IMG/VR virus record: IMGVR_UViG_3300001533_000144
Span: 18,026-38,086 of that record
DNA: 20,061 nucleotides
Strand: one strand, 5' to 3'
Source of the DNA: a virus
Part shown: positions 1-20,061 of the stretch, one piece after another
How the letters are laid out: every line of letters starts with the position of its first letter
Position numbering within the stretch: position 1 is the stretch's first letter
Program-made: the position numbers and the translations under genes
The notes under the pieces: generated by a model
The model's database searches: none
What the model saw: the letters and a program-made list of their open reading frames with translations, nothing else
What the model was told of the DNA's origin: nothing

Positions 1-73
1 AAAAAATAATTTAAAATTATTTTAAAAAAAATTAAAAAAAGTGCTTGACATGGGGTTTGGCCTGATGTATCTT
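1..73 (+). promoter_or_regulatory. sigma70 promoter P1 with AT-rich upstream element
   Basis: A consensus -35 box TTGACA lies at 45-50. It is followed by a 17-base spacer and a -10 box TATCTT at 68-73 (4 of 6 matches to TATAAT). Transcription should start near 80. Bases 1-44 are almost pure A/T with runs of A, as in an UP element that binds the alpha subunit of host RNA polymerase. Promoter P2 at 3662-3690 has the same -35 box, the same spacing and a similar AT-rich upstream stretch, so the two look like copies. P1 would let host polymerase read the early small genes and Lon. Confidence 0.82.
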
Positions 74-194
74 GTAATCAAACAGAGGGAGAAAGGCCAA
101 ACGGCAACCGGCACAGAAAAAAGCCAAACCAGAACAGGAAACTCCAGAGGACGGGACGCGATGATGAAAGAGCGCCGCCTGGTGACCCAAACAA
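74..194 (+). promoter_or_regulatory. 5' leader of the early transcript, upstream of ribozyme 1
   Basis: This is the stretch from the presumed transcription start (about 80) to the ribozyme. An open reading frame runs through it from a GTG at 41, but that frame covers the promoter and the ribozyme and has no ribosome binding site, so I treat the region as non-coding. It shares only short islands with the second leader (GAACAGG at 132-138 and 3750-3756, and a nearby CAGAG). The 21 bases at 186-206 are identical to 3807-3827. The distance from the -10 box to the predicted cleavage site is 152 bases here and 153 in the second copy. Confidence 0.6.
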
Positions 195-253
195 AGCCGA
201 AACGCTATGTGATGAGCATAGCGTCTGTTATTAAGGATAACACTGACGAGGCT
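195..253 (+). ncRNA. Type II hammerhead self-cleaving ribozyme, copy 1
   Basis: All core parts of a hammerhead ribozyme are present in permuted order, open at stem II. Stem II is AGCC 195-198 with GGCT 250-253. The GAA core is 199-201, and A202 pairs U224. Stem III is 203-209 with 217-223 (7 perfect pairs, 7-base loop). The cleavage residue is C225, within a GUC triplet. Stem I is 226-231 with 237-242 (6 perfect pairs, loop TAAGG). The second core segment CTGACGA is 243-249, and the invariant first pair of stem II is G250-C198. Predicted cleavage falls between 225 and 226. The ribozyme abuts the ribosome binding site at 254-260 of the first gene. The second copy at 3816-3871 supports every stem by covariation. 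Confidence 0.95.
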
Positions 254-265
254 AAGGAGGACAAC

Positions 266-448
266 ATGAGCAAGGCAAGACAGAGACGGATGGAACATGA
301 GGCTACCCGGTCAATCAGACGGGGATGGGACAACAACGAATACAAAGCATACCGCAAGCCTGCTGAGAAGAGTACCAAGCATCTTAATGGCCCGGTCAAG
401 GTTTTCACCCAGGAAGAAATCGAAGCGTATATGAGAGGAGAGTTATAA
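266..448 (+). CDS. Small basic early protein, unknown function (60 aa)
   Basis: This is the first gene of the early operon. The start at 266 has a strong AAGGAGG at 254-260, directly after the hammerhead ribozyme. The same frame is open back to 41, but an upstream start would place the promoter and ribozyme inside the protein. The product is rich in Arg and Lys (N-terminal MSKARQRRMEHEATRSIRRG) with an acidic end (EEIEAYMRGEL), so it is a soluble, basic small protein. I do not recognise a family. Position and size match the early phage proteins that inhibit or redirect host factors, but that role is inference only. The stop overlaps the next start by one base (TAATG). Confidence 0.8.
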   Translation: MSKARQRRMEHEATRSIRRGWDNNEYKAYRKPAEKSTKHLNGPVKVFTQEEIEAYMRGEL

Positions 449-582
449 TGACTGAATTAATGAGAATGGGATTCGAATTCATGGCAGCATTCGGAGTTGT
501 GACGGCATTATATCTGGTTAACACCAAGATTGTTCAGCCCTATCTGCACAAACGTACCGTTAAAAAACACTGCAAGAAATAA
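448..582 (+). CDS. Very small putative membrane protein (44 aa)
   Basis: The ATG at 448 overlaps the previous stop by one base, suggesting translational coupling; GAGAGGAG lies just upstream. The product begins MTELMRMGFEFMAAFGVVTA and continues into a hydrophobic stretch at about residues 9-25, then a basic tail ending KRTVKKHCKK. This fits a single membrane-spanning segment with a positively charged cytoplasmic tail. It has no recognised family. It belongs to the tightly packed early cluster under promoter P1. Confidence 0.65.
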   Translation: MTELMRMGFEFMAAFGVVTALYLVNTKIVQPYLHKRTVKKHCKK

Positions 583-593
583 AGGAGAACACC

Positions 594-743
594 ATGGAAA
601 CCTTATTAACTGTTGGCCTGATGATCCTGGTTCCGAAAGCATTAATTGAGACCTACCGGCTTCGGAGGGTTTATCAACTGAAGTACAGCACACTCAAGAT
701 CAAGTACCTGTTCTGGAAATTGAACAGGGCAATGAATAAATAA
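594..743 (+). CDS. Very small basic, possibly membrane-associated protein (49 aa)
   Basis: The ATG at 594 follows AAAGGAG at 582-588. The N-terminus METLLTVGLMILVPKALIET is hydrophobic for about 16 residues. The rest is strongly basic and amphipathic (YRLRRVYQLKYSTLKIKYLF). This could be a short membrane anchor with a basic helix. I do not recognise it. It lies 11 bases after the previous gene, and its stop is followed directly by the ribosome binding site AAGGAGG of the next gene. Confidence 0.65.
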   Translation: METLLTVGLMILVPKALIETYRLRRVYQLKYSTLKIKYLFWKLNRAMNK

Positions 744-753
744 GGAGGATGCC

Positions 754-903
754 ATGACCATTATATACACATTCGAATGCACACACTGCAAACACAAAGA
801 AGCATCTTCAGAGGCTGAATCCTATAAGACCAAGGGTATCAAGGCATGCCCATCATGTGGTAAGAAGATGACAGCAACCATGACCTTCGATGTAAGGAGA
901 TGA
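754..903 (+). CDS. Small zinc-ribbon protein (49 aa)
   Basis: The ATG at 754 follows AAGGAGG at 742-748. Two CxxC knuckles are visible, Cys9/Cys12 (ECTHC) and Cys32/Cys35 (CPSC). The C-terminal half ends in a short beta-like stretch, MTATMTFDVRR. This is the size and layout of a minimal zinc ribbon of the kind found in small regulatory proteins and phage peptides. A protein- or nucleic acid-binding role is likely, and the partner is unknown. It lies in the early operon between two small unknown genes. Confidence 0.72.
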   Translation: MTIIYTFECTHCKHKEASSEAESYKTKGIKACPSCGKKMTATMTFDVRR

Positions 904-906
904 ACT

Positions 907-1056
907 ATGACGACTAAAGAAGAGAGAGAACTCATGGATAGAGTATACCGGTATGACATGCTCTCTGCTGAGGCGAGGTTAAAAGGTAACACTCTGGTTG
1001 AGGAGACAGCAAAAGAATTAGCAGACAGATTCATGAAGAAACTACAAAGGAGATAA
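907..1056 (+). CDS. Small charged early protein, unknown (49 aa)
   Basis: The ATG at 907 follows AAGGAG at 894-899, which lies in the end of the previous gene. The product is hydrophilic and probably all-helical (MTTKEERELMDRVYRYDMLS, ending FMKKLQRR). Its first residues resemble those of the next gene (MTTKEERE and MTNREERE), so the two may be old tandem duplicates that have diverged. No family is recognised. Confidence 0.65.
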   Translation: MTTKEERELMDRVYRYDMLSAEARLKGNTLVEETAKELADRFMKKLQRR

Positions 1057-1059
1057 GCC

Positions 1060-1251
1060 ATGACGAACAGAGAAGAACGTGAATACGTAGAAGTATTGGC
1101 AGCCACTAGAACTTCGGTCTGGTATCCGATGTCCTATGAGGACGTGGATGAAGTCTTAAGTCAGATTGGTGTCTTTGTTGACATCCTGAAGCTGGAAGAG
1201 ATGAAGTCCCTTTGTGAAAAAACCGAAATGGTAACTGAATACAACTTATAA
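1060..1251 (+). CDS. Small acidic early protein, unknown (63 aa)
   Basis: The ATG at 1060 lies four bases after the previous stop and has AAGGAG at 1047-1052. The product starts MTNREEREYVEVLAATRT and contains an acidic central part (MSYEDVDEVLSQIGVFVDIL), probably helical. The start resembles that of the preceding 49-aa protein. No known family is recognised. It is part of the P1 operon and probably translated with its neighbours. Confidence 0.7.
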   Translation: MTNREEREYVEVLAATRTSVWYPMSYEDVDEVLSQIGVFVDILKLEEMKSLCEKTEMVTEYNL

Positions 1252-1262
1252 GGAGAATTAAA

Positions 1263-1388
1263 ATGAACCGTGAACTTTATGAAGCCCTGTACGAATACGT
1301 AGAAGAGAGAGAAGAAGCAAACCGCATTGCAGAAGAAGAAATGTTCGAGTATCTTCATGAACTGGAGGCAGCCCTGAAAGGAGAGTAA
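1263..1388 (+). CDS. Tiny acidic helical protein (41 aa)
   Basis: The ATG at 1263 follows AAGGAG at 1250-1255. The product MNRELYEALYEYVEEREEAN and the following EEEMFEYLHELEAALKGE read as one long acidic amphipathic helix with regularly spaced Leu, Tyr and Ala. It could form a short coiled coil or act as a DNA-mimic-like acidic peptide. Neither role can be shown from sequence. It ends one base before the Lon start, and its last codons contain the Lon ribosome binding site (AAGGAG), so it may be coupled to Lon. Confidence 0.65.
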   Translation: MNRELYEALYEYVEEREEANRIAEEEMFEYLHELEAALKGE

Positions 1389-1389
1389 C

Positions 1390-3648
1390 ATGAATATCAT
1401 CGGGATGGACAAAGGCGGCGTACTCATGATCGGGTCTTACGACCAAGTTGTTTTACCTTATATATATAAGATCCTGACATTTCCCATTGATGAGTTCTAT
1501 GGGCCGGATGTCACCAACATGCTGGATAACCCTCATGAGATTCATTTGGCCCTCTTGGTCAACCCCGATGTAATACGAACAAGGCCTTTCGTCGGTATGC
1601 TGGTTTCATTGAGCCATCCGAATATCCATCATGATCCTGGTACAGTCTCTCTTATGGTTAAAGGCTCTCAGCGTATGCTGATCAAGTCTCACATTGAAAT
1701 AGGTAACAGGTTCTATGCTGATAACTATGACAAGGTCTCATACAACATGGGATCAAGACCAGAACGAATCTATGAGATGTCAGACATGGCATTTGAATAT
1801 GTAAAGAAGCTCGGTAAAGATGACCTTGAGTGGAAAGAGGCTGTTGACTATATATCCTCACTCCCACCAAGTGACTTTGTAGATTACCTGCTGTACCAGT
1901 TCAATGAGGACAAACCTGAGGTACTGCATCAGATAGTAGCTGAAACTTCATTACATAGAAGATTAAGGAGATTGAACATGGATATTGATAATCATAAGAG
2001 TGCTGGTAACAATGGTGATGGTTTGAAATCCAACAACACAGACGTAAAAGAGATGATCGAAAGGTTCCGTAAGCTGGAACTGACAGGTAAAACATACGAT
2101 GAACTACATGCAGCCATTAAAGGCATCTGTAACGTAGCTACATCACACTCTGAATACCCCACGACCTTAAGGTATGTTAAGTTCTCAATCGAGCTTCTCG
2201 AAGCCAACAGCAACGTCACAGAAGATACTGACGTAGCAACAGTTGAAGAGAGCTTGGATACCTCCCACTATGGCATGGACAAAGCCAAGGAACGGTTGGT
2301 TGAGTTCCTGGCAGTGAAGAAACTGAATCCTGAATCTAAAGGTATGATCCTCCTGCTGGATGGCCCTCCGGGTACCGGCAAGACTACCCTGGCAAAAGCA
2401 TTCGCTAAAGCCCTGGGTCGTAAGTGTGAGCGTATCTCGATGGGTGGCTGCTCCGATTCATCATTTGTTAAAGGGCATAGCCGGACCTACACAGGTAGCC
2501 GGTATGGTAGGATAGCTTCTGCCATGCACTCCTGTGGTACACAGAACCCGGTCATCATCCTGGATGAAGTTGAGAAGATCATGTCTGCCCATGGTGACCC
2601 TGAAGGAGCCTTGCTGGAAGTCCTAGATCCGGAACAGAACAATGAGTTCACCGATACTTACCTGAACTTCCCGATCGATCTGTCCAAGGTCATCTTCATT
2701 GCCACATCCAACAATGCTGATCAGATTGCTGATGCCCTGTACGATCGGATGGAATACATTGGTTGTGATGGATACACCATGACTGAGAAGGTTAAGATCG
2801 CTCAGAGATATACCATCCCGAAAGCAGCCTCAGATGTCGGCGTTAAGGGCGTTAAATTCACGCCTGCTACGCTTAAGTACATCATCGAGGGTTACACTAG
2901 GGAGGCTGGTATGAGGACGCTTGAGAAGTCGATTAAGGCCCTTCTGAGAAAGGTTGCTGTGGAAAAGGCCAAGGGTAAGGATATCAAGATTACCAAGAAG
3001 CTGATCCATGACAGACTGGGACGTCCCTATACAGAAGAGAAACCAATGGAACACAATATCCCTGGCATCGTATCTGGCCTGTATTACAGCACCAATGGTG
3101 GGGGATGCCTTGACATCGAAGCTCTTATCACAGATGACGACGGCTCGAATAACCTGACCGTCACAGGTAAAGCTGGCGAGATCATGTTGGAATCTATGAG
3201 CCTGGTTCACAGCCATATGACAGCCAAGCAGTATGAGTATAGCCTGAATGAAGTTGACCTGATGGAAGTTGACATCCATGTTCATATGCCTGATGGGTCC
3301 ACTCCTAAAGATGGTCCTTCAGCTGGTGCTGCTTACAGCCTACTGTTCGGTAGCCTGGCTGCTAACCGCCCTGTTAAGGCTGGCCTGGCCCTGACTGGTG
3401 AGTGTACACTGACCGGACGGATCACAGCCATTGGTGGGGTGGATCAGAAGGTTGCTGGTGCAATCCGCATGGGTATGACCGATGTCATCCTCCCGGAAGC
3501 TAACCGGCGTGATTGGGATGAACTGGATAAGAAGGTTAAGAAGAGCATCAACGTACACTTCGTTACTACGGTTGCTGAGGTGTTGGAAATTGGTCTGGTA
3601 CCCGCTGAGAACGGCTCAGACTTGAACCTTGAAAATATTTCAATTTAA
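1390..3648 (+). CDS. lon: ATP-dependent Lon protease (phage-encoded, 752 aa)
   Basis: This is an AAA+ serine protease that unfolds and degrades proteins in the cytoplasm. Residues about 20-110 look like the Lon N-terminal substrate-binding domain, ending VSLMVKGSQRMLI. Residues about 290-560 form the AAA+ module, with Walker A GPPGTGKT at 325-332, Walker B VIILDE at 388-393, a sensor-1 ATSNN segment and a sensor-2 TREAGMR segment. The protease domain holds the catalytic Ser644 (PKDGPSAG) and Lys687 (GGVDQK). Their spacing of 43 residues equals that of E. coli Lon (Ser679/Lys722). Length is close to E. coli Lon (784 aa), the difference lying mainly in the middle linker. All catalytic residues are present, so the enzyme is probably active. 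It is the last gene of the P1 operon, 13 bases before promoter P2. It has an in-frame internal start with a good ribosome binding site at 1978. Confidence 0.96.
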   Translation: MNIIGMDKGGVLMIGSYDQVVLPYIYKILTFPIDEFYGPDVTNMLDNPHEIHLALLVNPDVIRTRPFVGMLVSLSHPNIHHDPGTVSLMVKGSQRMLIKSHIEIGNRFYADNYDKVSYNMGSRPERIYEMSDMAFEYVKKLGKDDLEWKEAVDYISSLPPSDFVDYLLYQFNEDKPEVLHQIVAETSLHRRLRRLNMDIDNHKSAGNNGDGLKSNNTDVKEMIERFRKLELTGKTYDELHAAIKGICNVATSHSEYPTTLRYVKFSIELLEANSNVTEDTDVATVEESLDTSHYGMDKAKERLVEFLAVKKLNPESKGMILLLDGPPGTGKTTLAKAFAKALGRKCERISMGGCSDSSFVKGHSRTYTGSRYGRIASAMHSCGTQNPVIILDEVEKIMSAHGDPEGALLEVLDPEQNNEFTDTYLNFPIDLSKVIFIATSNNADQIADALYDRMEYIGCDGYTMTEKVKIAQRYTIPKAASDVGVKGVKFTPATLKYIIEGYTREAGMRTLEKSIKALLRKVAVEKAKGKDIKITKKLIHDRLGRPYTEEKPMEHNIPGIVSGLYYSTNGGGCLDIEALITDDDGSNNLTVTGKAGEIMLESMSLVHSHMTAKQYEYSLNEVDLMEVDIHVHMPDGSTPKDGPSAGAAYSLLFGSLAANRPVKAGLALTGECTLTGRITAIGGVDQKVAGAIRMGMTDVILPEANRRDWDELDKKVKKSINVHFVTTVAEVLEIGLVPAENGSDLNLENISI
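1965..1980 (+). promoter_or_regulatory. Internal ribosome binding site and in-frame start inside lon
   Basis: AAGGAG at 1965-1970 is followed after seven bases by ATG at 1978, codon 197 of lon. The arrangement is nearly the same as the true start at 894-909 (AAGGAG, seven bases, ATG). Use of this start would give a 556-residue Lon with the AAA+ and protease domains but without the N-terminal substrate-binding domain. The codons AGG AGA that form the site encode Arg-Arg, so it could be chance. Confidence 0.45.
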
Positions 3649-3661
3649 TTTTAAAAAACTC

Positions 3662-3690
3662 TTGACATGTGAAATCCCCTGCTATATATT
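3662..3690 (+). promoter_or_regulatory. sigma70 promoter P2, upstream of the phage RNA polymerase
   Basis: A consensus TTGACA at 3662-3667, a 17-base spacer and TATATT at 3685-3690 (5 of 6 matches) make a strong host-type promoter. Transcription should start near 3697. An AT-rich stretch at 3632-3660 overlaps the end of lon and resembles an UP element. Host polymerase would use P2 to make the phage polymerase early in infection, independently of P1. Confidence 0.88.
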
Positions 3691-3696
3691 CTTACA

Positions 3697-3815
3697 CAAA
3701 GGCGGGGGAGAGCTTACCAGACGAAACTTGGAGAGAGACCGCCGAAGGGGAACAGGCAAGCCCGAACTCACAGAGTACCGTGTGATCAACCAGGGAATCC
3801 CAAGGCCCCAAACAA
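3697..3815 (+). promoter_or_regulatory. 5' leader of the RNA polymerase transcript
   Basis: This is the stretch between the presumed start of P2 transcripts and ribozyme 2. Near its 5' end GGCGG (3701-3705) can pair with CCGCC (3739-3743). The last nine bases (3807-3815) plus the start of the ribozyme are identical to copy 1. A reading frame from 3629 to 3877 crosses this area, but it overlaps the promoter and the ribozyme and shows no ribosome binding site. I regard the leader as non-coding. Its length up to the predicted cleavage is almost the same as in copy 1. Confidence 0.6.
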
Positions 3816-3871
3816 AGCCGAAACGCTCACTACGGTGGGCGTCTATAATTAATGATTATACTGATGAGGCT
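3816..3871 (+). ncRNA. Type II hammerhead self-cleaving ribozyme, copy 2
   Basis: Stem II is AGCC 3816-3819 with GGCT 3868-3871. The GAA core is 3820-3822, and A3823 pairs U3842. Stem III is 3824-3830 with 3835-3841 (one G-U pair), closed by a TACG loop in a C-G context, the very stable UNCG type. The cleavage residue is C3843, within a GUC triplet. Stem I is TATAAT 3844-3849 with ATTATA 3855-3860 around a TAATG loop. The second core segment is the canonical CTGATGA at 3861-3867. Cleavage is predicted between 3843 and 3844. Stem I and the distal part of stem III differ in sequence from copy 1 yet pair fully in both, which is direct covariation evidence. The ribosome binding site of the RNA polymerase gene follows at 3876-3882. 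Confidence 0.96.
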
Positions 3872-3889
3872 AATTAAAGGAGAACGTTT

Positions 3890-6193
3890 ATGAGACCTTG
3901 TGATAGAGCGCAACTGGCAGCAGCAGTACAGGAAGTTTACCTTGAGAACAAACTCACCAAATACCAGAAGAGCGCCCTTAAGAAGATTGTCAAGGTTGTT
4001 GGGGAATCAACACTTCTTGATGCTCTCATGGGAGCAGTCTCTGGTCTTAAGATCCAGGAGGAAGCTACACTGTCAAGCATCGTTACGACCGCTGGTAACT
4101 ACATCGCTAGTGACTACATTTATCATAGCCTTATTGACGGTCTTCCTAAGAAGGCTGTTGATTATATGACCAAGATGTTAGAGAAGCAAACAAAGTATTA
4201 CAACCACATGATCGAGAGATTGATTGGCCGTACTGGCGTCTCTATTAGAAACATCATCCCAATAATCATGAAGCTGGACTATGAGAAATTACCGAAGACT
4301 CAGACATCCCTTAGAAAGCTCAGATCAAAAGAAGCACGACTGGCTTATATTGAGGCGGCAAAGACCCTGGTGGATGAAATCCGTCCGGTTATGATCATGG
4401 TTATTGAATGCTTAACAACCAAGACTGATAGTTTCGAGATCATCCGTAAGTCTGAGAATGGGAAATCAAAAACCTGGTATCTGAAGAACAACAAACCCCA
4501 GGCTTTTGATGTTAACTACATGAGCATCGAACCTAAGAAACTTGATGAAATCAAATGTGACATTGATCTGTCCGGTGATTCCACATGCCGCCGAGCCGTT
4601 GAGCGCACCTTGAATCAGCCACACACACTCGACCAGGACGTCAATAATGCTATCATGGCAATCATTGATACTCCTTTATTTGAGAAGCTCATCCGCAAGA
4701 ACAACACGGATGAGCTGAGTGTACAGGCCAAGTTGGAGCAAACAAGATACTCCATCAAAGAAGGAATCGGTTTTTGGGGAGAACTTGGCAAGGGCAACGT
4801 CTACTTCGATTACGTGGTAGACTTCAGAGGACGGATCAATCAGATTGGTGGCATCTCCGCAGTTGGTAACAAGGTTGGTAAGGCAATGCTGAGAAGCGGA
4901 GTCTCTTATCCCTTAGGACAACACGGCTATGATGACATCCTGATTGCACTCGCAGGAGCGATGGGACATGATAAAGAAACTTTTGACGAAAGACTTAGAT
5001 GGGCACGGAACAACGTTGTTAGATTTACTGATCTGGGGAGTATGCTGTTACATTCCCCTGATCGCGCTTTTAATTTTCTAATCAAAGAGGGGGCGGATGA
5101 GATATTTGCTGCTGCTGCTATTTGTATCGAGCTTCACCGTATTAAGCATTATCATGGTGATATCAGAGATTATTGTTCAAACCTTTATATCGGGTACGAC
5201 GCTACTTCAAGTGCTGTTCAGCTCGTTGGTCTTATGATGGGTAACTACCGCCTGACCGAGGCTTCCAATGTTCGAGTAGGTAATGACACCGAAGATAAGA
5301 TCCATGACGCTTACATGCTCATGGCTGACTCCATGGATGAGCTGGCTAAGACCGGTGAGTTTAATGAAGAGGACGCAGAGTTCATCAAAATGTGGCTGGA
5401 CTTCCCCACCAAAACGAAACGGGCATTCGCTAAGCCGTTACTCATGACCAGACTGTACGGGTCTACCAGACTGACTTGGATTGATCGTTCTCGTGATGCA
5501 GCCCTGGAGAAAGGGATCATGAGACATGATGATCCGAGACTCCAGCAGTTCGGTATCTCGATTGCAAGACTGTTCGAAAGAGCGTTTAATGAATCAGATG
5601 GTTACGGTTCTCTGAAGGGCTACGAGCGCTTCATCAAAGAGATATCCAAGGCTTATGTATCAGTTGGTAAGCATGGTCGTTGGAATGTCTATGATGGCGT
5701 TGGTGATGCTATTCAGATGGTAGAGAACAAGTATACTGATTATGAGGGCGATGATTACCGGAGTTATTTTCAAGGAAAGAAATGCATTATGCGCTCCTAT
5801 AACCTGAGCATCCTCACTGACTGCAAAGAAGCATTGGATCTGTATGATGTATTTAAAATTGACAAGTACAGAGCAGTCTCTGGCATTGCTCCTAACTTCA
5901 TCCACAGCCACGATGCATTAGTCCTGCATCTGACCGTGAATGAAATGGGTGACGTCCCCATGAGACTGACCCATGATTGCTTTGCCTGCGCTCCTGGAAA
6001 GGTTGGAGAAATGCAGGATGCGATTATCAAAGTTTACACTGAGCAATTTGGTAATAACACTTTTGATCGCTTGGAGCGATTGAGAGATGACTGCGAGAAA
6101 GATACTGGCGTTTCGGTTGCGCTTCCTGAGGAGTACAATGCACAAGGTATTCCGATAAAGGAAGTATGCCAGGCCAAGTATATGTTCTCGTAA
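3890..6193 (+). CDS. T7-type single-subunit DNA-directed RNA polymerase (767 aa)
   Basis: This enzyme should transcribe the later phage genes from phage-specific promoters. Motif A is YDATSSAVQ with catalytic Asp437. Motif B is R511, K515 and Y523-G524 in KRAFAKPLLMTRLYG, with the same spacing as T7 R627/K631/Y639. The segment before motif C, SGIAPNFIHSHD, matches T7 closely. Motif C is LTHDCF with catalytic Asp696. The C-terminus YMFS corresponds to the functionally important T7 end FAFA. The protein is about 115 residues shorter than T7 RNA polymerase (883 aa). Asp437 lies exactly 100 residues earlier than T7 Asp537, so most of the loss is N-terminal, where T7 binds promoter and nascent RNA. 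The start has AAAGGAG at 3876-3882. The gene is driven by P2 and closed by terminator T1. Confidence 0.96.
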   Translation: MRPCDRAQLAAAVQEVYLENKLTKYQKSALKKIVKVVGESTLLDALMGAVSGLKIQEEATLSSIVTTAGNYIASDYIYHSLIDGLPKKAVDYMTKMLEKQTKYYNHMIERLIGRTGVSIRNIIPIIMKLDYEKLPKTQTSLRKLRSKEARLAYIEAAKTLVDEIRPVMIMVIECLTTKTDSFEIIRKSENGKSKTWYLKNNKPQAFDVNYMSIEPKKLDEIKCDIDLSGDSTCRRAVERTLNQPHTLDQDVNNAIMAIIDTPLFEKLIRKNNTDELSVQAKLEQTRYSIKEGIGFWGELGKGNVYFDYVVDFRGRINQIGGISAVGNKVGKAMLRSGVSYPLGQHGYDDILIALAGAMGHDKETFDERLRWARNNVVRFTDLGSMLLHSPDRAFNFLIKEGADEIFAAAAICIELHRIKHYHGDIRDYCSNLYIGYDATSSAVQLVGLMMGNYRLTEASNVRVGNDTEDKIHDAYMLMADSMDELAKTGEFNEEDAEFIKMWLDFPTKTKRAFAKPLLMTRLYGSTRLTWIDRSRDAALEKGIMRHDDPRLQQFGISIARLFERAFNESDGYGSLKGYERFIKEISKAYVSVGKHGRWNVYDGVGDAIQMVENKYTDYEGDDYRSYFQGKKCIMRSYNLSILTDCKEALDLYDVFKIDKYRAVSGIAPNFIHSHDALVLHLTVNEMGDVPMRLTHDCFACAPGKVGEMQDAIIKVYTEQFGNNTFDRLERLRDDCEKDTGVSVALPEEYNAQGIPIKEVCQAKYMFS

Positions 6194-6219
6194 TAGTTTA
6201 CATTGACCGCCGGGCACAC

Positions 6220-6254
6220 ATCCCCCTGATATCATTTGATATTAGGGGGATTTT
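6220..6254 (+). terminator. Intrinsic terminator T1 after the RNA polymerase gene
   Basis: ATCCCCCTGATATC (6220-6233) pairs with 6238-6251 to form a 14-pair stem with one G-U pair and an ATTT loop, followed by T residues to 6254. It would stop the host-driven P2 transcript after the polymerase gene and separate the early genes from the structural genes. Confidence 0.9.
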
Positions 6255-6264
6255 CACGTAGATG

Positions 6265-6283
6265 TTGGACTAACGTAGGGAAC
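6265..6283 (+). promoter_or_regulatory. Candidate phage RNA polymerase promoter before the structural genes
   Basis: TTGGACTAACGTAGGGAAC lies just after terminator T1 and 20 bases before the small terminase start. The part GGACTAACGTAGGGA resembles the core of T7 and T3 promoters (CGACTCACTATAGGGA in T7) with one base missing. No second convincing copy is present in the window, so this is a weak call based on position and resemblance. Confidence 0.3.
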
Positions 6284-6302
6284 ACGAAAGGAGATTAACA
6301 AA

Positions 6303-6767
6303 ATGGCTAAGAACAAAGGACCAGGAAGACCTAAAGAGTACAACACTGAGACTCTAAAGAGAATCTGTAACCTGATCATTGATGGACACTCTCTCACTGA
6401 GACAGCTAGAAAGATAGGAGTAACTAGACAGGCTATCTATAAGTGGAGAAAGGAAGATGATAACTTTGCAGAGATGTACCAGGAAGCCTTAGAAGTAAGA
6501 GCTGAAGGTTTAATGGATGAGATACTACAGATATCAGATGATGATAGTAGAGATGTCATAGTAGATGAAGAAACAGGTAGAAAGACAGGTAATACTACAG
6601 CAGTACAAAGAGATAAACTAAGGGTTACATCTAGAAATAGATTAATGCAATGGTTGAATCCTAAGAAGTTTAGTGAGAGATCTAATATTGATATCACCTC
6701 TAATGGTGAATCTGTTTATGGTGGTCTTATGATTACACCCCCTAAGGAGGAAGAAGATGTCGATTAA
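6303..6767 (+). CDS. Terminase small subunit (154 aa)
   Basis: The small terminase recognises phage DNA and hands it to the large subunit for packaging. After a basic N-terminus (MAKNKGPGRPKEY), residues about 31-50 form a clear helix-turn-helix (LTETARKIGVTRQAIYKWRK), as in small terminases of this kind. A charged helical oligomerisation region follows, and the C-terminal tail is acidic. The start has AAGGAG at 6288-6293. The gene differs from its neighbours in base and codon use: G+C falls to about 32-38% in its second half, and nearly every Arg codon is AGA with no CGN. Its end overlaps the next gene by 11 bases. Confidence 0.87.
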   Translation: MAKNKGPGRPKEYNTETLKRICNLIIDGHSLTETARKIGVTRQAIYKWRKEDDNFAEMYQEALEVRAEGLMDEILQISDDDSRDVIVDEETGRKTGNTTAVQRDKLRVTSRNRLMQWLNPKKFSERSNIDITSNGESVYGGLMITPPKEEEDVD

Positions 6768-7077
6768 GAATAAACACAGAGAGAAGAATGAGTATAAGAT
6801 CTGGGGAATGGAAGTTGGTCTCCTGGTGGAAGACGCAGAGACCTGGTGGAATAATGTTGGTAAAGACGTGATGAGGAAACGGACCTTCTCTGGGTCTGCC
6901 AAGGAACAGCAGGCTGCCCTGGATGCTACCAACCCTGTCCACCCTAATTACCTTGGTGGTAAATCTGGTATTCTCCTTGGTCTCTCATGGGACATGTTGT
7001 CTAACCGGGAGAGATATCAGGTCTTGAAAGCATACACCCTGACCATGAAGGAACTTATGGATGGCGAAATCGAATAA
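6757..7077 (+). CDS. Hypothetical protein between the terminase subunits (106 aa)
   Basis: The ATG at 6757 follows AAGGAGG at 6743-6749 inside the small terminase gene, and the end overlaps the large terminase start by 17 bases. The product is soluble, with many charged residues and Trp/Trp in EDAETWWNNVGKDVM. It also has a segment GSAKEQQAALDATNPVHP followed by a Gly-rich stretch, YLGGKSGILLGLS. I do not recognise a family. Overlap on both sides suggests translation together with both terminase subunits and perhaps a role in packaging. That role is inference. Confidence 0.8.
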   Translation: MSIKNKHREKNEYKIWGMEVGLLVEDAETWWNNVGKDVMRKRTFSGSAKEQQAALDATNPVHPNYLGGKSGILLGLSWDMLSNRERYQVLKAYTLTMKELMDGEIE

Positions 7078-8701
7078 CATCACACAGCTGGATCTGTCTT
7101 ATCACAGAACCATTTGGGATTTCATGCAGGATGATAGTTTCGTACGCATGGTCATTGGCCCGGTTGGCTCTGGTAAATCTACTGGGGTCATCTGTGGTGA
7201 GATCATGAGGAGAGCCTTTATGCAGGAGCCTTCACCGAAGGATAACATCCGGTATTTCAAGGCTCTCATCGTACGTAACACTTTGCCTGATCTGAAGAAA
7301 ACCACAATCAAAACCTGGAATGGTATGTACCCCCAGAGTGTTGGGAAATGGCGGGAGAACCCTCCCTCACATCACTTCCAGATTAAACCCACAAAACAGC
7401 AACCTGGTCTTGACCTACTGGTAGAATTCATGGGTCTCGACACTGCCAAGGACGCAGGGAAGTTACTCTCCTATGAGGGTACTTTGATTGCGTTCAATGA
7501 ATGCAAGGAGATCCAGAAGGACATCGTTGACCAGGCTACTGCTCGAGTAGGACGTTACCCGTCCATGAAGCAGGGCGGTATCATGCCCACCTGGTACGGC
7601 ATCATTGCTGATACCAACCCGTATAATGCGGGACACTGGATTGATGTCCTTGAGAAGAACGTGCCCGAAGGTTGGGCCTTCTTTAGGCAGCCCCCAGGTG
7701 TTCTTGAGATGGAGAAGGTAGAGGGAGGATGGAAGTCTCTCGAGTCTGCATGGCCCATGAACATCCCTGAGGACAAACCTGAATACATCCACAAAGGTGG
7801 TGGGTCTATCTGGGCTGTCAATCCTAAGGCCGAGAACCTGCCTTATTTGCCTGTTAACCACGTAATGGACCCGTACTATCAGGAAGAACTGAGAGACGAT
7901 CCTAAGTACATGAAAGAGGCTAGGAGGAGGGCCGGCAGTTATTATGCAAACATCATCAAAGGAAAAGAGCGATCTTACATCCAGATTTATGTCCAAGGTA
8001 AGAATGGCGCTCTTACGTCTGACCATGCAGTGGTTCCGGAATTCAATCAGCAAACGATGGTCTCAGAGGCGATAGAATACAATGAACTTATCCCACTTCA
8101 CGCTGGCATCGACTTTGGTGCTGGTACCTTGAACCCGGCTGCTGTCTTCGGACAGATAGATCCGATCGAGGGGAGGTGGCACATCCTTAAAGAAGTTGTG
8201 TGTCCTAACATGGGCTTGGTTCAATTCACAGAACAAGTCCTTCGGACCATCAAAGATAATTTCTTTGGTGTGTCAGATTTAAGAGTATGGGGTGACCCTG
8301 CCGGTATGCAGCGGGATGGTATCTCGATGAAGACCTACTTCGATCATATGAGAACCCAGGGGCTATTTGCTCAGCCTGCCCCGACAAACCAAATTGATGT
8401 ACGGATAGAATGTATCAAGACACCTATGCTGCGGTTCTCAGGCGGAAAGCCTGGGATGCTGATCAGTAACAAGTGTCCCATACTGATCGAAGCCCTTGCA
8501 GAGAAGTGGTGCTATAAGCGCCTCAATGTGTCAGGGGAAGTACGCTACGATGACAAGCCTTGTAAGGACCATCCCTGGTCAGATGTTGCCGATGCTCTCG
8601 GTTACATGCTGGCGGGTGGTGGTGAACATGGCGCGTTATCGTATAACCAAACAAACAGGCTTGAACCTATGATTATGAATACAGACTGGGAGGTGTTCTA
8701 A
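7061..8701 (+). CDS. Terminase large subunit (546 aa)
   Basis: This is the packaging motor ATPase and headful or end-cutting nuclease. Walker A GPVGSGKS is at residues 33-40. The Walker B-like strand LIAFNE is at 142-147, with Glu147 as likely catalytic carboxylate and Asn in place of the usual Asp. The RNase H-like nuclease domain shows three acidic clusters: Asp351 (HAGIDFG), Asp412 (VWGDPAG) and Asp508/Asp511 (WSDVADALGY). Length is near T7 gp19 (586 aa). The ATG at 7061 has AAGGAA just upstream and overlaps the preceding gene, so the two are probably coupled. Terminase stands upstream of portal here, whereas in T7 it lies at the other end of the structural cluster. Confidence 0.95.
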   Translation: MAKSNNITQLDLSYHRTIWDFMQDDSFVRMVIGPVGSGKSTGVICGEIMRRAFMQEPSPKDNIRYFKALIVRNTLPDLKKTTIKTWNGMYPQSVGKWRENPPSHHFQIKPTKQQPGLDLLVEFMGLDTAKDAGKLLSYEGTLIAFNECKEIQKDIVDQATARVGRYPSMKQGGIMPTWYGIIADTNPYNAGHWIDVLEKNVPEGWAFFRQPPGVLEMEKVEGGWKSLESAWPMNIPEDKPEYIHKGGGSIWAVNPKAENLPYLPVNHVMDPYYQEELRDDPKYMKEARRRAGSYYANIIKGKERSYIQIYVQGKNGALTSDHAVVPEFNQQTMVSEAIEYNELIPLHAGIDFGAGTLNPAAVFGQIDPIEGRWHILKEVVCPNMGLVQFTEQVLRTIKDNFFGVSDLRVWGDPAGMQRDGISMKTYFDHMRTQGLFAQPAPTNQIDVRIECIKTPMLRFSGGKPGMLISNKCPILIEALAEKWCYKRLNVSGEVRYDDKPCKDHPWSDVADALGYMLAGGGEHGALSYNQTNRLEPMIMNTDWEVF

Positions 8702-16694: not shown

Positions 16695-18338
16695 ATGGCA
16701 CAGACAATCTTTGACGCTCAGCGTCCGAGGATCTCAATATCTGGTAGCCAGCCTTCTGCAGACCCGACACGGCTATTGAACACGGTATCTCGTTCTTTAG
16801 CCATGGCGGGGGACGAACAGTTCAAGCGTTGGCAGGAGGGTGTTGTCAAGACTGCACAGCAGGAGGGTGAACTGGCAGGAGCGCAACTGGCGCCGGAATA
16901 TAGAAGTGGTGATACTCTCTCTGCTAATGCTTTCAATGATGCGGCAAAGAGAAGCTATCTCACCAGGTTGGAAACAGAATCATCAACTAAAATGCAAGCC
17001 CTGAGGGAGACCTATAAAAATGATCCTGAGGGGTATCAGAAAGCATCTAAGCAGTATATAGACGGGGTAGTATCAGGACTGAGAGAGTCCAGCCAGACAG
17101 CAGCAGCAGCCGAATTCATGGGCGCACGTCTGCAGATGGCACAGCAGTCTGACGGCTATATGGTCAGTAAGCAGTACATGGCTCAACAGGCCGAGGCAAT
17201 TCAGGTGGAAACTGAAGATCTTATTCACACCTTGAATACTAACGCCTACCGGGAAGCTGGTGGGATGTTCTCTAAAGATCCGAATGTACAGGCTATGGCA
17301 ATCGAGAAGTTCTCCGTATCAAAGCAAGCCTTAGAGAACGCTCTTCATACCACCTTACCTGATGGTACACCGGTATATAGTCCTAAGGCTGTACAGAACC
17401 ATATGAATGCTTTCCATGAGAAGTTCTACACACGGTCAGTTCAGGATTATGTGTCTCAGAATGATGTCACTGATGAGGAGATAGACCAGATCGTTAATGG
17501 GACCTTCGCTGTTAATATCGAAGGTGTAGGGAGCATCAACCTTTTAGATGAACTAGGGGCTGATAAATATGACAGGGAAGTCAAAGAGTTCACGTTCCGG
17601 AAGATACACGAACAGAACGCCGCGCAACAGAAAGCAGAGACACTTGCCGATAAGGCGTCCAAGGAAATGCAGAAGGTGAACGGAGTAACCTTGATAGGCG
17701 AGTTACTCGCTGGTTCTCCTGTAACCCTGGATGGTGTTTATGAGAAACTGAATGCCGGCCTTATCTCTTCTGGCGATGCTATGGCAGCGGTGAAGATCAT
17801 CACAGATCCTAACGCAGGGCAGGATGACTCTGATATTGTGGCAGACCTTAAGGTGAAGCTCGCCCTCGGTCAGGATGTTAGTGCGGATATACGAAAGATG
17901 GCACCGTACATGACCGGTAGGACATACACAAACCTTATGGAAGATGCAGCAAAGGTACAGGCAGGTCGTATCGATGAAGCAGAAAACTGGTTGGTGAAGC
18001 AGGTATTGAAGCCTGATGAATTTGGATTCCCGAATCCTGACAGCCAGAAGCAGGCAGCGGACATCCAGACTTCGTACAGACAGATGATAGAAGACGGCAT
18101 GGACCCGCAGGTAGCATACGAGAAGGCACAGACTTTGGTAGACACGCTACGCTCTAATCAGCAAGCGTCTGCCTCACGTATCCCTCGATACTCAGTACCT
18201 GATGGTAGTGGTGGATTCGACATAGTGGCCACCTTTGAAGAAACAGAGAAAGCCTTTAAGGAAGGCAGAATATCATACGATGAAATGATGGCAGAGGGAG
18301 CTAAACTCAAAGAGTTTCAATCCTCCCTGGCCCAATAG
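16695..18338 (+). CDS. Internal virion (ejection) protein, gp15-like (547 aa)
   Basis: This is probably the second internal core protein, which helps build the periplasmic ejection channel. The sequence is mostly helical, Gln/Ala-rich and without membrane segments, with stretches such as AMAGDEQFKRWQEGVVKTAQ and AAAEFMGARLQMAQQSDGYM. T7 gp15 is longer (747 aa). The ATG at 16695 follows AGGGGG at 16685-16690. The order gp14-like, gp15-like, gp16-like is that of T7. The call rests on order and general composition. Confidence 0.78.
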   Translation: MAQTIFDAQRPRISISGSQPSADPTRLLNTVSRSLAMAGDEQFKRWQEGVVKTAQQEGELAGAQLAPEYRSGDTLSANAFNDAAKRSYLTRLETESSTKMQALRETYKNDPEGYQKASKQYIDGVVSGLRESSQTAAAAEFMGARLQMAQQSDGYMVSKQYMAQQAEAIQVETEDLIHTLNTNAYREAGGMFSKDPNVQAMAIEKFSVSKQALENALHTTLPDGTPVYSPKAVQNHMNAFHEKFYTRSVQDYVSQNDVTDEEIDQIVNGTFAVNIEGVGSINLLDELGADKYDREVKEFTFRKIHEQNAAQQKAETLADKASKEMQKVNGVTLIGELLAGSPVTLDGVYEKLNAGLISSGDAMAAVKIITDPNAGQDDSDIVADLKVKLALGQDVSADIRKMAPYMTGRTYTNLMEDAAKVQAGRIDEAENWLVKQVLKPDEFGFPNPDSQKQAADIQTSYRQMIEDGMDPQVAYEKAQTLVDTLRSNQQASASRIPRYSVPDGSGGFDIVATFEETEKAFKEGRISYDEMMAEGAKLKEFQSSLAQ

Positions 18339-18348
18339 GAGATAATAT

Positions 18349-20061
18349 ATGGAAGGTTTCAGCAACGGAGATCGGAAGTCGTTTCTCGAACTCGGGAAGG
18401 ATTACGAGGGAGGGAGCGATTCCTATCTGCAGGCAATCAGACAGGCGGAGATCGATAGACTTCGCAAGGAAATACTTGGTGGTCAGGGCAAGCCTCTGGC
18501 TCCTGAGGCCCCTAAGGAAGTAACCGAAGAACAGCCCACAGAACAGATGAAACCTGAGGAAACGACACCCGAGAAAGAAGAAGACGGGGGTATCCTCGGG
18601 GCTGTGGGCGACTTCTTCAAAGAGCTGCCGTCTCAAGTAGCAGGCGGGGCTTTGGATGCAATCAACGCCACACTTCAGACAGCTAAGGACATGGGCGAGG
18701 GTATCGGAATCCCAGACTATGCCCTTCAGCTGTTTGATGCAGAAGGTAACTTGGACATCGGCCTGCTCACCCCTCAGGAGATTGAGGAAGCGGGTGGACG
18801 TAGGGCACAGCTCGCACCGGACATTGAAGAGGCTGACACAGCTGGTGGCGGGTTTGCTCGGGCAATCTCCCAGTTCGCTGTGGGCTTCATCCCTGTGTCA
18901 AAGGGGCTGCAAGCTGCTGGCATGGCTGGCGGTGCTGCTCGTGGTATGGTGGCTGGTGGCGTGGCGGATGCTGTGTCAATGGATCCCCACCAGGCCCGCT
19001 TGGCTACACTGTTGAACGAAGTACCAGTCCTACAGGAGATCGTACCTGATTACCTGGCTGACAATAATCCTGAAAATGAATCTGCCTGGGAAGGGCGGAT
19101 TAAGAATACATTGGAAGGTCTCGCCCTTGGTGGTGCATCCGAAGCCTTGATTAAAGGCACAACCCGGATGATCAAGGCATACAAGACCATGAGTAAAGCA
19201 CCTGAGGCGGCTAAGACAGCATCCCAGGTGATCAATGAAGATGTGATAGGGGATGTGGCTGATGACGCTGCCGATGCAATGCGGACAGAGAAAGTCGTCG
19301 ACCTTGGCCCTGAGGAGATACTATATAAGGATGGGGACAAGACCTACCTCAACCATGCCAGGATTAACTCTGCCGATGATGTCAAGAAGGTTATGCAGAA
19401 CATGGCCGATGAAGTAGACATGACAGGTAGAATGAGTCTGGATGACATGGCTCAAGCGTCTAAGGAAGAGTACAAAGCTGTATCTGACTTACTTGGGCGT
19501 GAGGTGGACAGACCGTTCACTGCCTCCGAAGCTGTAGCAGCTCGTAACATCATGACAAGCTCAGCCGAAGAGTTGACCAAACTGGCAAAGATCGCAGTGG
19601 ATCCGCTGGCCTCACCGGAAGATATGTTTAAGTTCCGGAGAGCTACTGAGGTTCACAAGAGTATCCAGGAAGTTGTGCTGGCTGGTCGGCGTGCTACTGC
19701 TCGGTCCCTGAAGTCTTGGGATATTAGTTCGGCCTCGTCTAAGATGAGAACCAAACAGATCTCAGAGTTGATGGAATCCAAGGGCGGTGACGTCAAGAGG
19801 CTGGCGAAGATGATCAATGATGTAGCAGAGAACGGCGGTAACGTAAGCAAGGCAGTGGGTGACAGCCTGACGAAGAAGTGGTCTGACTCATACTATCAGG
19901 TATGGATCAATGGGCTACTGTCTTCTCCGTCTACCCATCTTGCCAACATTACGTCCAACGCTGCTACCTCAATGCTGGCTATTCCTGAGCGCTACCTTAC
20001 TGCTGGCTTCGATGCTATGCGGGGTGCTGGTGGGGAATCCTTTGTTCAGGCTAATGCCAGA
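18349..20061 (+). CDS. Large internal virion (ejection) protein, gp16-like, partial
   Basis: The ATG at 18349 has AGGAGA upstream (18337-18342), and the frame is open for 571 codons to the window edge, so the C-terminus is missing. The first 75 residues are charged and disordered (Pro/Glu/Lys-rich). A Gly/Ala-rich region at about 165-205 (AISQFAVGFIPVSKGLQAAG) could be membrane-active. Residues about 535-550 carry WINGLLSSPSTHLANITSNA, a segment I associate with very large phage virion proteins. T7 gp16 (1318 aa) has an N-terminal transglycosylase; none is evident in the visible part here. Confidence 0.82.
   Translation, partial: MEGFSNGDRKSFLELGKDYEGGSDSYLQAIRQAEIDRLRKEILGGQGKPLAPEAPKEVTEEQPTEQMKPEETTPEKEEDGGILGAVGDFFKELPSQVAGGALDAINATLQTAKDMGEGIGIPDYALQLFDAEGNLDIGLLTPQEIEEAGGRRAQLAPDIEEADTAGGGFARAISQFAVGFIPVSKGLQAAGMAGGAARGMVAGGVADAVSMDPHQARLATLLNEVPVLQEIVPDYLADNNPENESAWEGRIKNTLEGLALGGASEALIKGTTRMIKAYKTMSKAPEAAKTASQVINEDVIGDVADDAADAMRTEKVVDLGPEEILYKDGDKTYLNHARINSADDVKKVMQNMADEVDMTGRMSLDDMAQASKEEYKAVSDLLGREVDRPFTASEAVAARNIMTSSAEELTKLAKIAVDPLASPEDMFKFRRATEVHKSIQEVVLAGRRATARSLKSWDISSASSKMRTKQISELMESKGGDVKRLAKMINDVAENGGNVSKAVGDSLTKKWSDSYYQVWINGLLSSPSTHLANITSNAATSMLAIPERYLTAGFDAMRGAGGESFVQANAR

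Follow-up and report, generated by a model that had tools for sequence, protein, structure and literature searches.

What a self-cleaving RNA might do between the promoter and the first ribosome binding site of a phage operon is the question raised by positions 195 to 253 of the DNA analyzed here, a stretch of 20,061 nucleotides (the window) that belongs to a 38,086-base IMG/VR virus record with T7-like replication genes (SSB, endonuclease I, helicase-primase, and family A DNA polymerase). The original prediction placed a type II hammerhead at this locus, and sequence inspection finds every claimed core element at the position given for it. In this element (HHR1; all window features described here are on the forward strand), AGCC (195–198) and GGCT (250–253) form an open stem II of four pairs, followed by G12-A13-A14 (199–201), the closing pair A202–U224, an eight-pair stem III (203–210/216–223), the GUC cleavage triplet (223–225), a 17-nt stem I of seven pairs with a triloop (226–242), and the CUGACGA core (243–249), with cleavage predicted between 225 and 226. 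The minimum free energy (MFE) structure of 190–258 is this hammerhead (MFE z-score −3.15), which bears out the paired stems I and III and the four-pair open stem II that had been claimed. By the same stem rules no hammerhead arises in 200 shuffles of the whole window or 5000 shuffles of 1–300, and a motif scan of 1.17 Mb of reversed sequence returned no hammerhead match. The C at N7 is ordinary, since among the matches listed related hammerheads carry U in 82 of 155 cases and C in 62. The observation of a type II hammerhead at 195–253 is confirmed. Stem III was also considered as an intrinsic terminator (pattern at 202–224) and rejected, as it has no real U tract and such matches occur at or below the shuffle level.

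The original prediction had proposed a search with the Rfam hammerhead models as a check. Model RF02276 did not report this copy in whole-window or local searches, and a second copy (HHR2, below) scored 28.9 bits (E 0.029), below the gathering score of 37; neither copy reaches that score, which is a database cut-off and not a structural feature. Matches to RybB, SNORA71, and snoTBR5 were far under threshold and were discarded. Because RF02276 was silent on HHR1, we built our own covariance model (R1) from 50 viral hammerheads with a 17-nt stem I, with the window excluded from training; R1 finds HHR2 at 59.7 bits (E 2.7e-14), HHR1 at 58.1 bits (E 7.4e-14), and nothing else in the window. The alignment of the 50 training sequences, which were taken from a scan that demanded pairing, has 97.4% of its cells paired and double-sided changes at 14 of its 18 pairs; its covariation score of 0.643 compares with 0.149 for shuffled and <0.12 for slid controls. 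Raw DNA-pattern matches for which stem I pairing was not demanded nonetheless have at least five stem I pairs in 128 of 146 cases among the matches listed, and in several of the remainder stem I seems to be paired except for a mismatch close to its base.

These relatives come from a single DNA pattern run in IMG/VR, which yielded at least 120 stretches (L009–L128) and at least 164 unique type II hammerheads. Their stem I falls into two size classes, one of 17 nt with 7 bp, conserved G6–C12 and U7·G11, a triloop, and a 4-bp stem II, and the other of 22 to 24 nt and of the pseudoknot type. A pseudoknot between loop I and the 3′ tail is a feature of most type II hammerheads; by eye, HHR1 has no clear 4-bp match of this kind and HHR2 a possible UUAA self-complement, and loops in the 17-nt class are 3 nt long. 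Across 18 loci Rfam passes 10 hammerheads at its cut-off versus roughly 30 by our own scan, so that it is insensitive to the 17-nt subclass; much of the type II class, and of this subclass in particular, escapes the current Rfam model.

The original prediction saw one hammerhead in the window and overlooked a second, paralogous copy. HHR2 (3816–3871) was found by pattern scan at 3820–3867 and is also recognized by the covariance model; its end at 3871 lies 18 nt upstream of the ATG of an RNA polymerase gene, and its predicted cut, between 3843 and 3844, falls 46 nt ahead of that start codon. Each copy is part of a module that comprises a TTGACA-17-TATNTT promoter, a U-poor leader of ≈115 nt, the hammerhead, and a Shine–Dalgarno site. 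Promoter 1 (sigma70-like TTGACA-17-TATCTT, 45–73, 10/12) and promoter 2 (TTGACA-17-TATATT, 3662–3690, 11/12) are the only two strong forward promoter-like sites within 1–4000, and the leaders, delimited by assumed transcription start sites at ~80 and ~3697, are paralogous and align over their entire length. Leader 1 (80–194) has five T in 116 nt, the lowest T content of any 116-nt window in the 38-kb record, and leader 2 (3697–3815) has 10 T in 119 nt. The Shine–Dalgarno site AAGGAGG (254–260) abuts stem II of HHR1, and that of the RNA polymerase gene, AAAGGAG, is at 3876–3882. The placement of HHR1 between a sigma70-like promoter and the first strong ribosome binding site is thus consistent with the sequence, and the predicted cut 40 nt upstream of the ATG at 266 agrees with both the sequence and the independent covariance model. 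In the remaining 18 kb of the record, scan and covariance model found no additional hammerhead, and three loose pattern matches there were rejected for want of stems. A run of N occupies record bases 18012–18025, directly ahead of the AT-rich stretch that bears promoter 1.

Comparison of the two copies bears on whether these segments are RNA structures or simply coding DNA. Stem III differs between them in length and sequence and is paired in both, and stem I carries compensating changes (G–C/A–T and T–A/A–T). Open frames (41–448 and 3629–3877) do cross both hammerheads and would give similar peptides (TKPKR...SIASVIKDNTDEA and TKPKRSLRWASIINDYTDEAN), as expected of a coding segment that is no ribozyme; however, the frame of copy 2 stops at 3875–3877, ahead of the RNA polymerase, the differences between the copies alter amino acids and preserve base pairs, the downstream frame is open in only 61 of 153 relatives among the matches listed, and the class as a whole covaries. 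We rejected the coding explanation on these four grounds and consider it highly improbable.

That the operon is early, as originally proposed, is drawn from gene order. Module 1 is followed by a small open reading frame of 60 residues (266–448) with no Pfam match and, farther on, by a phage-encoded Lon-type protease of 752 residues (1390–3648; Lon_C 3e-53, AAA 4.5e-22), and module 2 by a single-subunit (T7-type) phage RNA polymerase of 767 residues (3890–6193; PF00940 3.4e-28). The Lon-type protease (AAA plus Lon_C) adjoins the phage RNA polymerase here and is present in the L136/L140 sister phage as well. Window positions 19860–20061 and record bases 1–202, that is, the last and first 202 bases of the record, are 94% identical, which may mean that the record is almost complete and either circular or terminally redundant.

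On this basis we propose that the hammerheads probably trim the 5′ leader autocatalytically, giving uniform, decay-resistant mRNA 5′ ends beside the ribosome site. The proposal starts from motif, structure, class covariation, duplication, and position, which are in silico observations; cleavage in the cell, the order of events, protection, and insulation are what we infer from them. Two paralogous modules with host-type promoters would drive the small-gene/Lon block and the RNA polymerase gene; each hammerhead would fold during transcription and cut after GUC, at 225/226 and 3843/3844, freeing a leader of ~145 nt with a 2′,3′-cyclic phosphate and leaving mRNAs whose 5′-OH end is the stem I hairpin itself, 40 and 46 nt upstream of their start codons. 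Since type II topology places stem I first in the 3′ product, the mRNA is predicted to begin with a 5′-OH, the 7-bp hairpin, CUGANGAGGCU, and then the Shine–Dalgarno site, and folding of the product retains the HHR1 stem I as this 5′-terminal hairpin. Every transcript would then receive the same short 5′ end regardless of promoter or read-through source, as from a natural insulator or 5′-end maturase. RppH- and RNase E-initiated decay acts poorly on a 5′-OH end or 5′ hairpin, and synthetic biology uses hammerheads between promoter and ribosome binding site as insulators; from this background the elements would serve to give the small-gene/Lon and RNA polymerase mRNAs uniform, protected 5′ ends. 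Trimming is favored by complete cores and stems in both copies, both of which the independent covariance model matches, by duplication of the promoter–leader–ribozyme architecture, and by a hammerhead-like motif of another topology that a sister phage keeps at the equivalent place. Taken as a whole, the original interpretation of 195–253 is supported at the level of sequence.

Simple unmasking of the ribosome site by cleavage was also considered for the window phage: in folding before and after the cut, the unpaired probability of the Shine–Dalgarno site goes from 0.86 to 0.81 for HHR1 and from 0.55 to 0.44 for HHR2, a change so slight that unmasking is unsupported. The same predictions bear on a regulated switch, in which a ligand, Mg, or a phage or host factor modulates cleavage and toggles translation of the small genes and RNA polymerase. 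The Shine–Dalgarno site does abut stem II, and cutting should free the site held within stem III of the sister-phage element described below, but no aptamer-like domain is present and the window sites are predicted to be mostly open both before and after the cut; we regard a switch as quite unlikely.

A portal query retrieved sister phages with the same gene order. Relative to the window phage, L136/L140/L144 have an RNA polymerase 34% identical, a Lon ~41% identical, and a capsid ~82% identical, and the RNA polymerase of L138/L142/L143 is 36% identical; a single-protein query of viral contigs with the RNA polymerase found no close relative. Neither group carries the type II element. Ahead of the RNA polymerase gene L136/L140 have no hammerhead, and in L138/L142/L143 the leader there is short and likewise lacks one, so the group can do without the element. 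That related lineages live without one is what a decayed or neutral passenger of promoter duplication, active or not and of no use, would lead one to expect; in the window, however, two diverged copies both retain every core base and all three stems, and we give a passenger hardly any weight. Farther afield, scan and model detected no hammerhead in the terminase relatives L006 and L007 or in stretches from phages MEP301, Hodr, SI2, and BcepC6B. Upstream of its structural genes, L006 has a lengthy series of degenerate repeats that encode units of ~23 residues (5581–7830).

In the early leader of L140, directly before the first ATG, lies a candidate type III hammerhead (3297–3349; also in L144 and L141) that reads CCUUAU-A^-UAUAGCGAGCAGCUAUA-CUGACGA-GAGU(UAACAC)ACUC-GAA-AUAAGG-AGG. 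Its core is present, stems I, II, and III have 6, 4, and 6 pairs including the A–U pair, the cleavage site AUA fits NUH, and Shine–Dalgarno bases lie within stem III, so that predicted cutting should free the ribosome site. A type I/III scan of 1.42 Mb matched nothing else (the two loci that contain it overlap on a single contig), against one match with a long loop among the controls, and none of 5000 shuffles recovers it. A second metagenome has an identical sequence. By its sequence the element is likely a type III hammerhead; a single sequence type in two metagenomes is thin evidence, however, and type III is therefore not established. L138 retains CGAAAUAAGGAGGCACAACAUGG and has lost the rest.

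The L140 leader also resembles leader 1 of the window, which bears on a reading in which cutting serves above all to release the leader. The functional product would then be the U-poor 5′ fragment, with the stem III hairpin at its 3′ end, acting as a small RNA, a decoy, or an antitermination-type RNA bound to polymerase, and trimming of the mRNA would be secondary. A 20-nt block of leader 1 (GGCACANAAAAAAGCCAAAC; leader element GGCACAGAAAAAAGCCAAAC at 110–129) has 19 of 20 positions in common with the leader of L140 (blastn E 3e-5), a sister phage whose RNA polymerase is only 34% identical; the exceptional T-poverty of leader 1 and the strong 3′ hairpin that stem III would supply argue in the same direction. 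Against this, the GGCACANAAAAAAGCCAAAC block is poorly kept in leader 2, the sister lineage L138 lacks a long leader, and most viral relatives among the matches listed begin at an upstream stop codon and would release no free leader. A freed leader as the main product is thus an unlikely reading, if the least unlikely of the alternatives to trimming. A blastn search of phage records with leader 2 produced nothing beyond short matches at chance level, and a full-length leader–ribozyme pattern search gave no match.

The positions of those relatives speak to trimming more generally. Of the matches listed, 160 are followed by enough sequence for this comparison; a Shine–Dalgarno site and ATG lie within 90 nt downstream in 68% of them versus 16% of random positions (median distance to the downstream start among the matches listed, 31 nt), and the hammerhead starts no more than 10 nt from the upstream gene's stop codon, mostly overlapping it, in 69% of the matches listed versus 7% at random; locus L020 alone has nine. 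Most listed type II hammerheads therefore occupy the whole space from the stop codon of one operon gene to the Shine–Dalgarno site of its successor, in keeping with the proposal of Perreault et al. that phages cut long transcripts into gene-length mRNAs (PMC3088659). The window copies are promoter-proximal, whereas these relatives are mostly intercistronic; the rule of stop codon, hammerhead, and Shine–Dalgarno site suggests that mRNA processing is the general role. For the T7-like group itself, it is conceivable, at somewhat less than even odds in our estimation, that selection keeps a hammerhead right ahead of the initial ribosome site in one operon with a host-type promoter even as the circular permutation of the ribozyme shifts (type II in the window phage, type III with Shine–Dalgarno bases in stem III in the sister phage), and that the window phage duplicated the cassette to control its own RNA polymerase, which would amount to autocatalytic 5′-end maturation for transcription take-over.

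Among known systems, RNase III processes the early mRNA of T7 into hairpin-ended units, a protein-catalyzed step that would be autocatalytic in the window phage. The synthetic insulator RiboJ is a type III-derived hammerhead placed between promoter and ribosome binding site that leaves a hairpin and a uniform 5′ UTR; RiboJ is engineered, whereas such a function in the window phage is only presumed. The L140/L144 candidate shares with the window copies an equivalent early-leader place, a 17-nt stem I, and the CUGACGA core, and differs in its open stem III, AUA cleavage site, and Shine–Dalgarno bases in stem III. Both window copies match type II hammerheads (RF02276) in the CUGANGA/GAA/A–U/NUH core, strand order, closed stems I and III with stem II open, phage setting, and multiple copies per genome (PMC3088659), and differ in the 17-nt stem I with a triloop, the 4-pair stem II, and the lack of an obvious pseudoknot. 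Two points of the original prediction need correction: the stem-II-open form is not the rarer one, type II being as frequent in bacteria as types I and III (Perreault 2011; PMC3088659), and the position, for which the original prediction knew of no described case, has a precedent in haloviruses HF1/HF2, where a hammerhead variant precedes the first gene of an early transcript by 13 nt and the mapped 5′ end of that transcript is ≤3 nt from the cut site (PMC3088659). That element (HHphage) likewise stands just ahead of the first gene of an early transcript, but it is a single copy with an altered core before a helicase gene of an archaeal virus, whereas the window phage is T7-like, with two copies before a small-gene block and RNA polymerase. 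Ribozyme class, phage setting, and placement ahead of the leading gene in an early transcript are therefore known (PMC3088659); we found no report in the open-licence literature of a promoter–leader–hammerhead cassette ahead of a phage RNA polymerase, and the paired, promoter-linked arrangement of two hammerheads is unusual. What role hammerheads play in bacteria and phages is acknowledged to be an open question (PMC6155905). Because each of the two copies has a recognizable promoter on one side and a ribosome site on the other, and one precedes the phage RNA polymerase gene, loss of cleavage has a clear predicted read-out, and paired, promoter-linked copies in one genome offer a clean way to test what a hammerhead is for.
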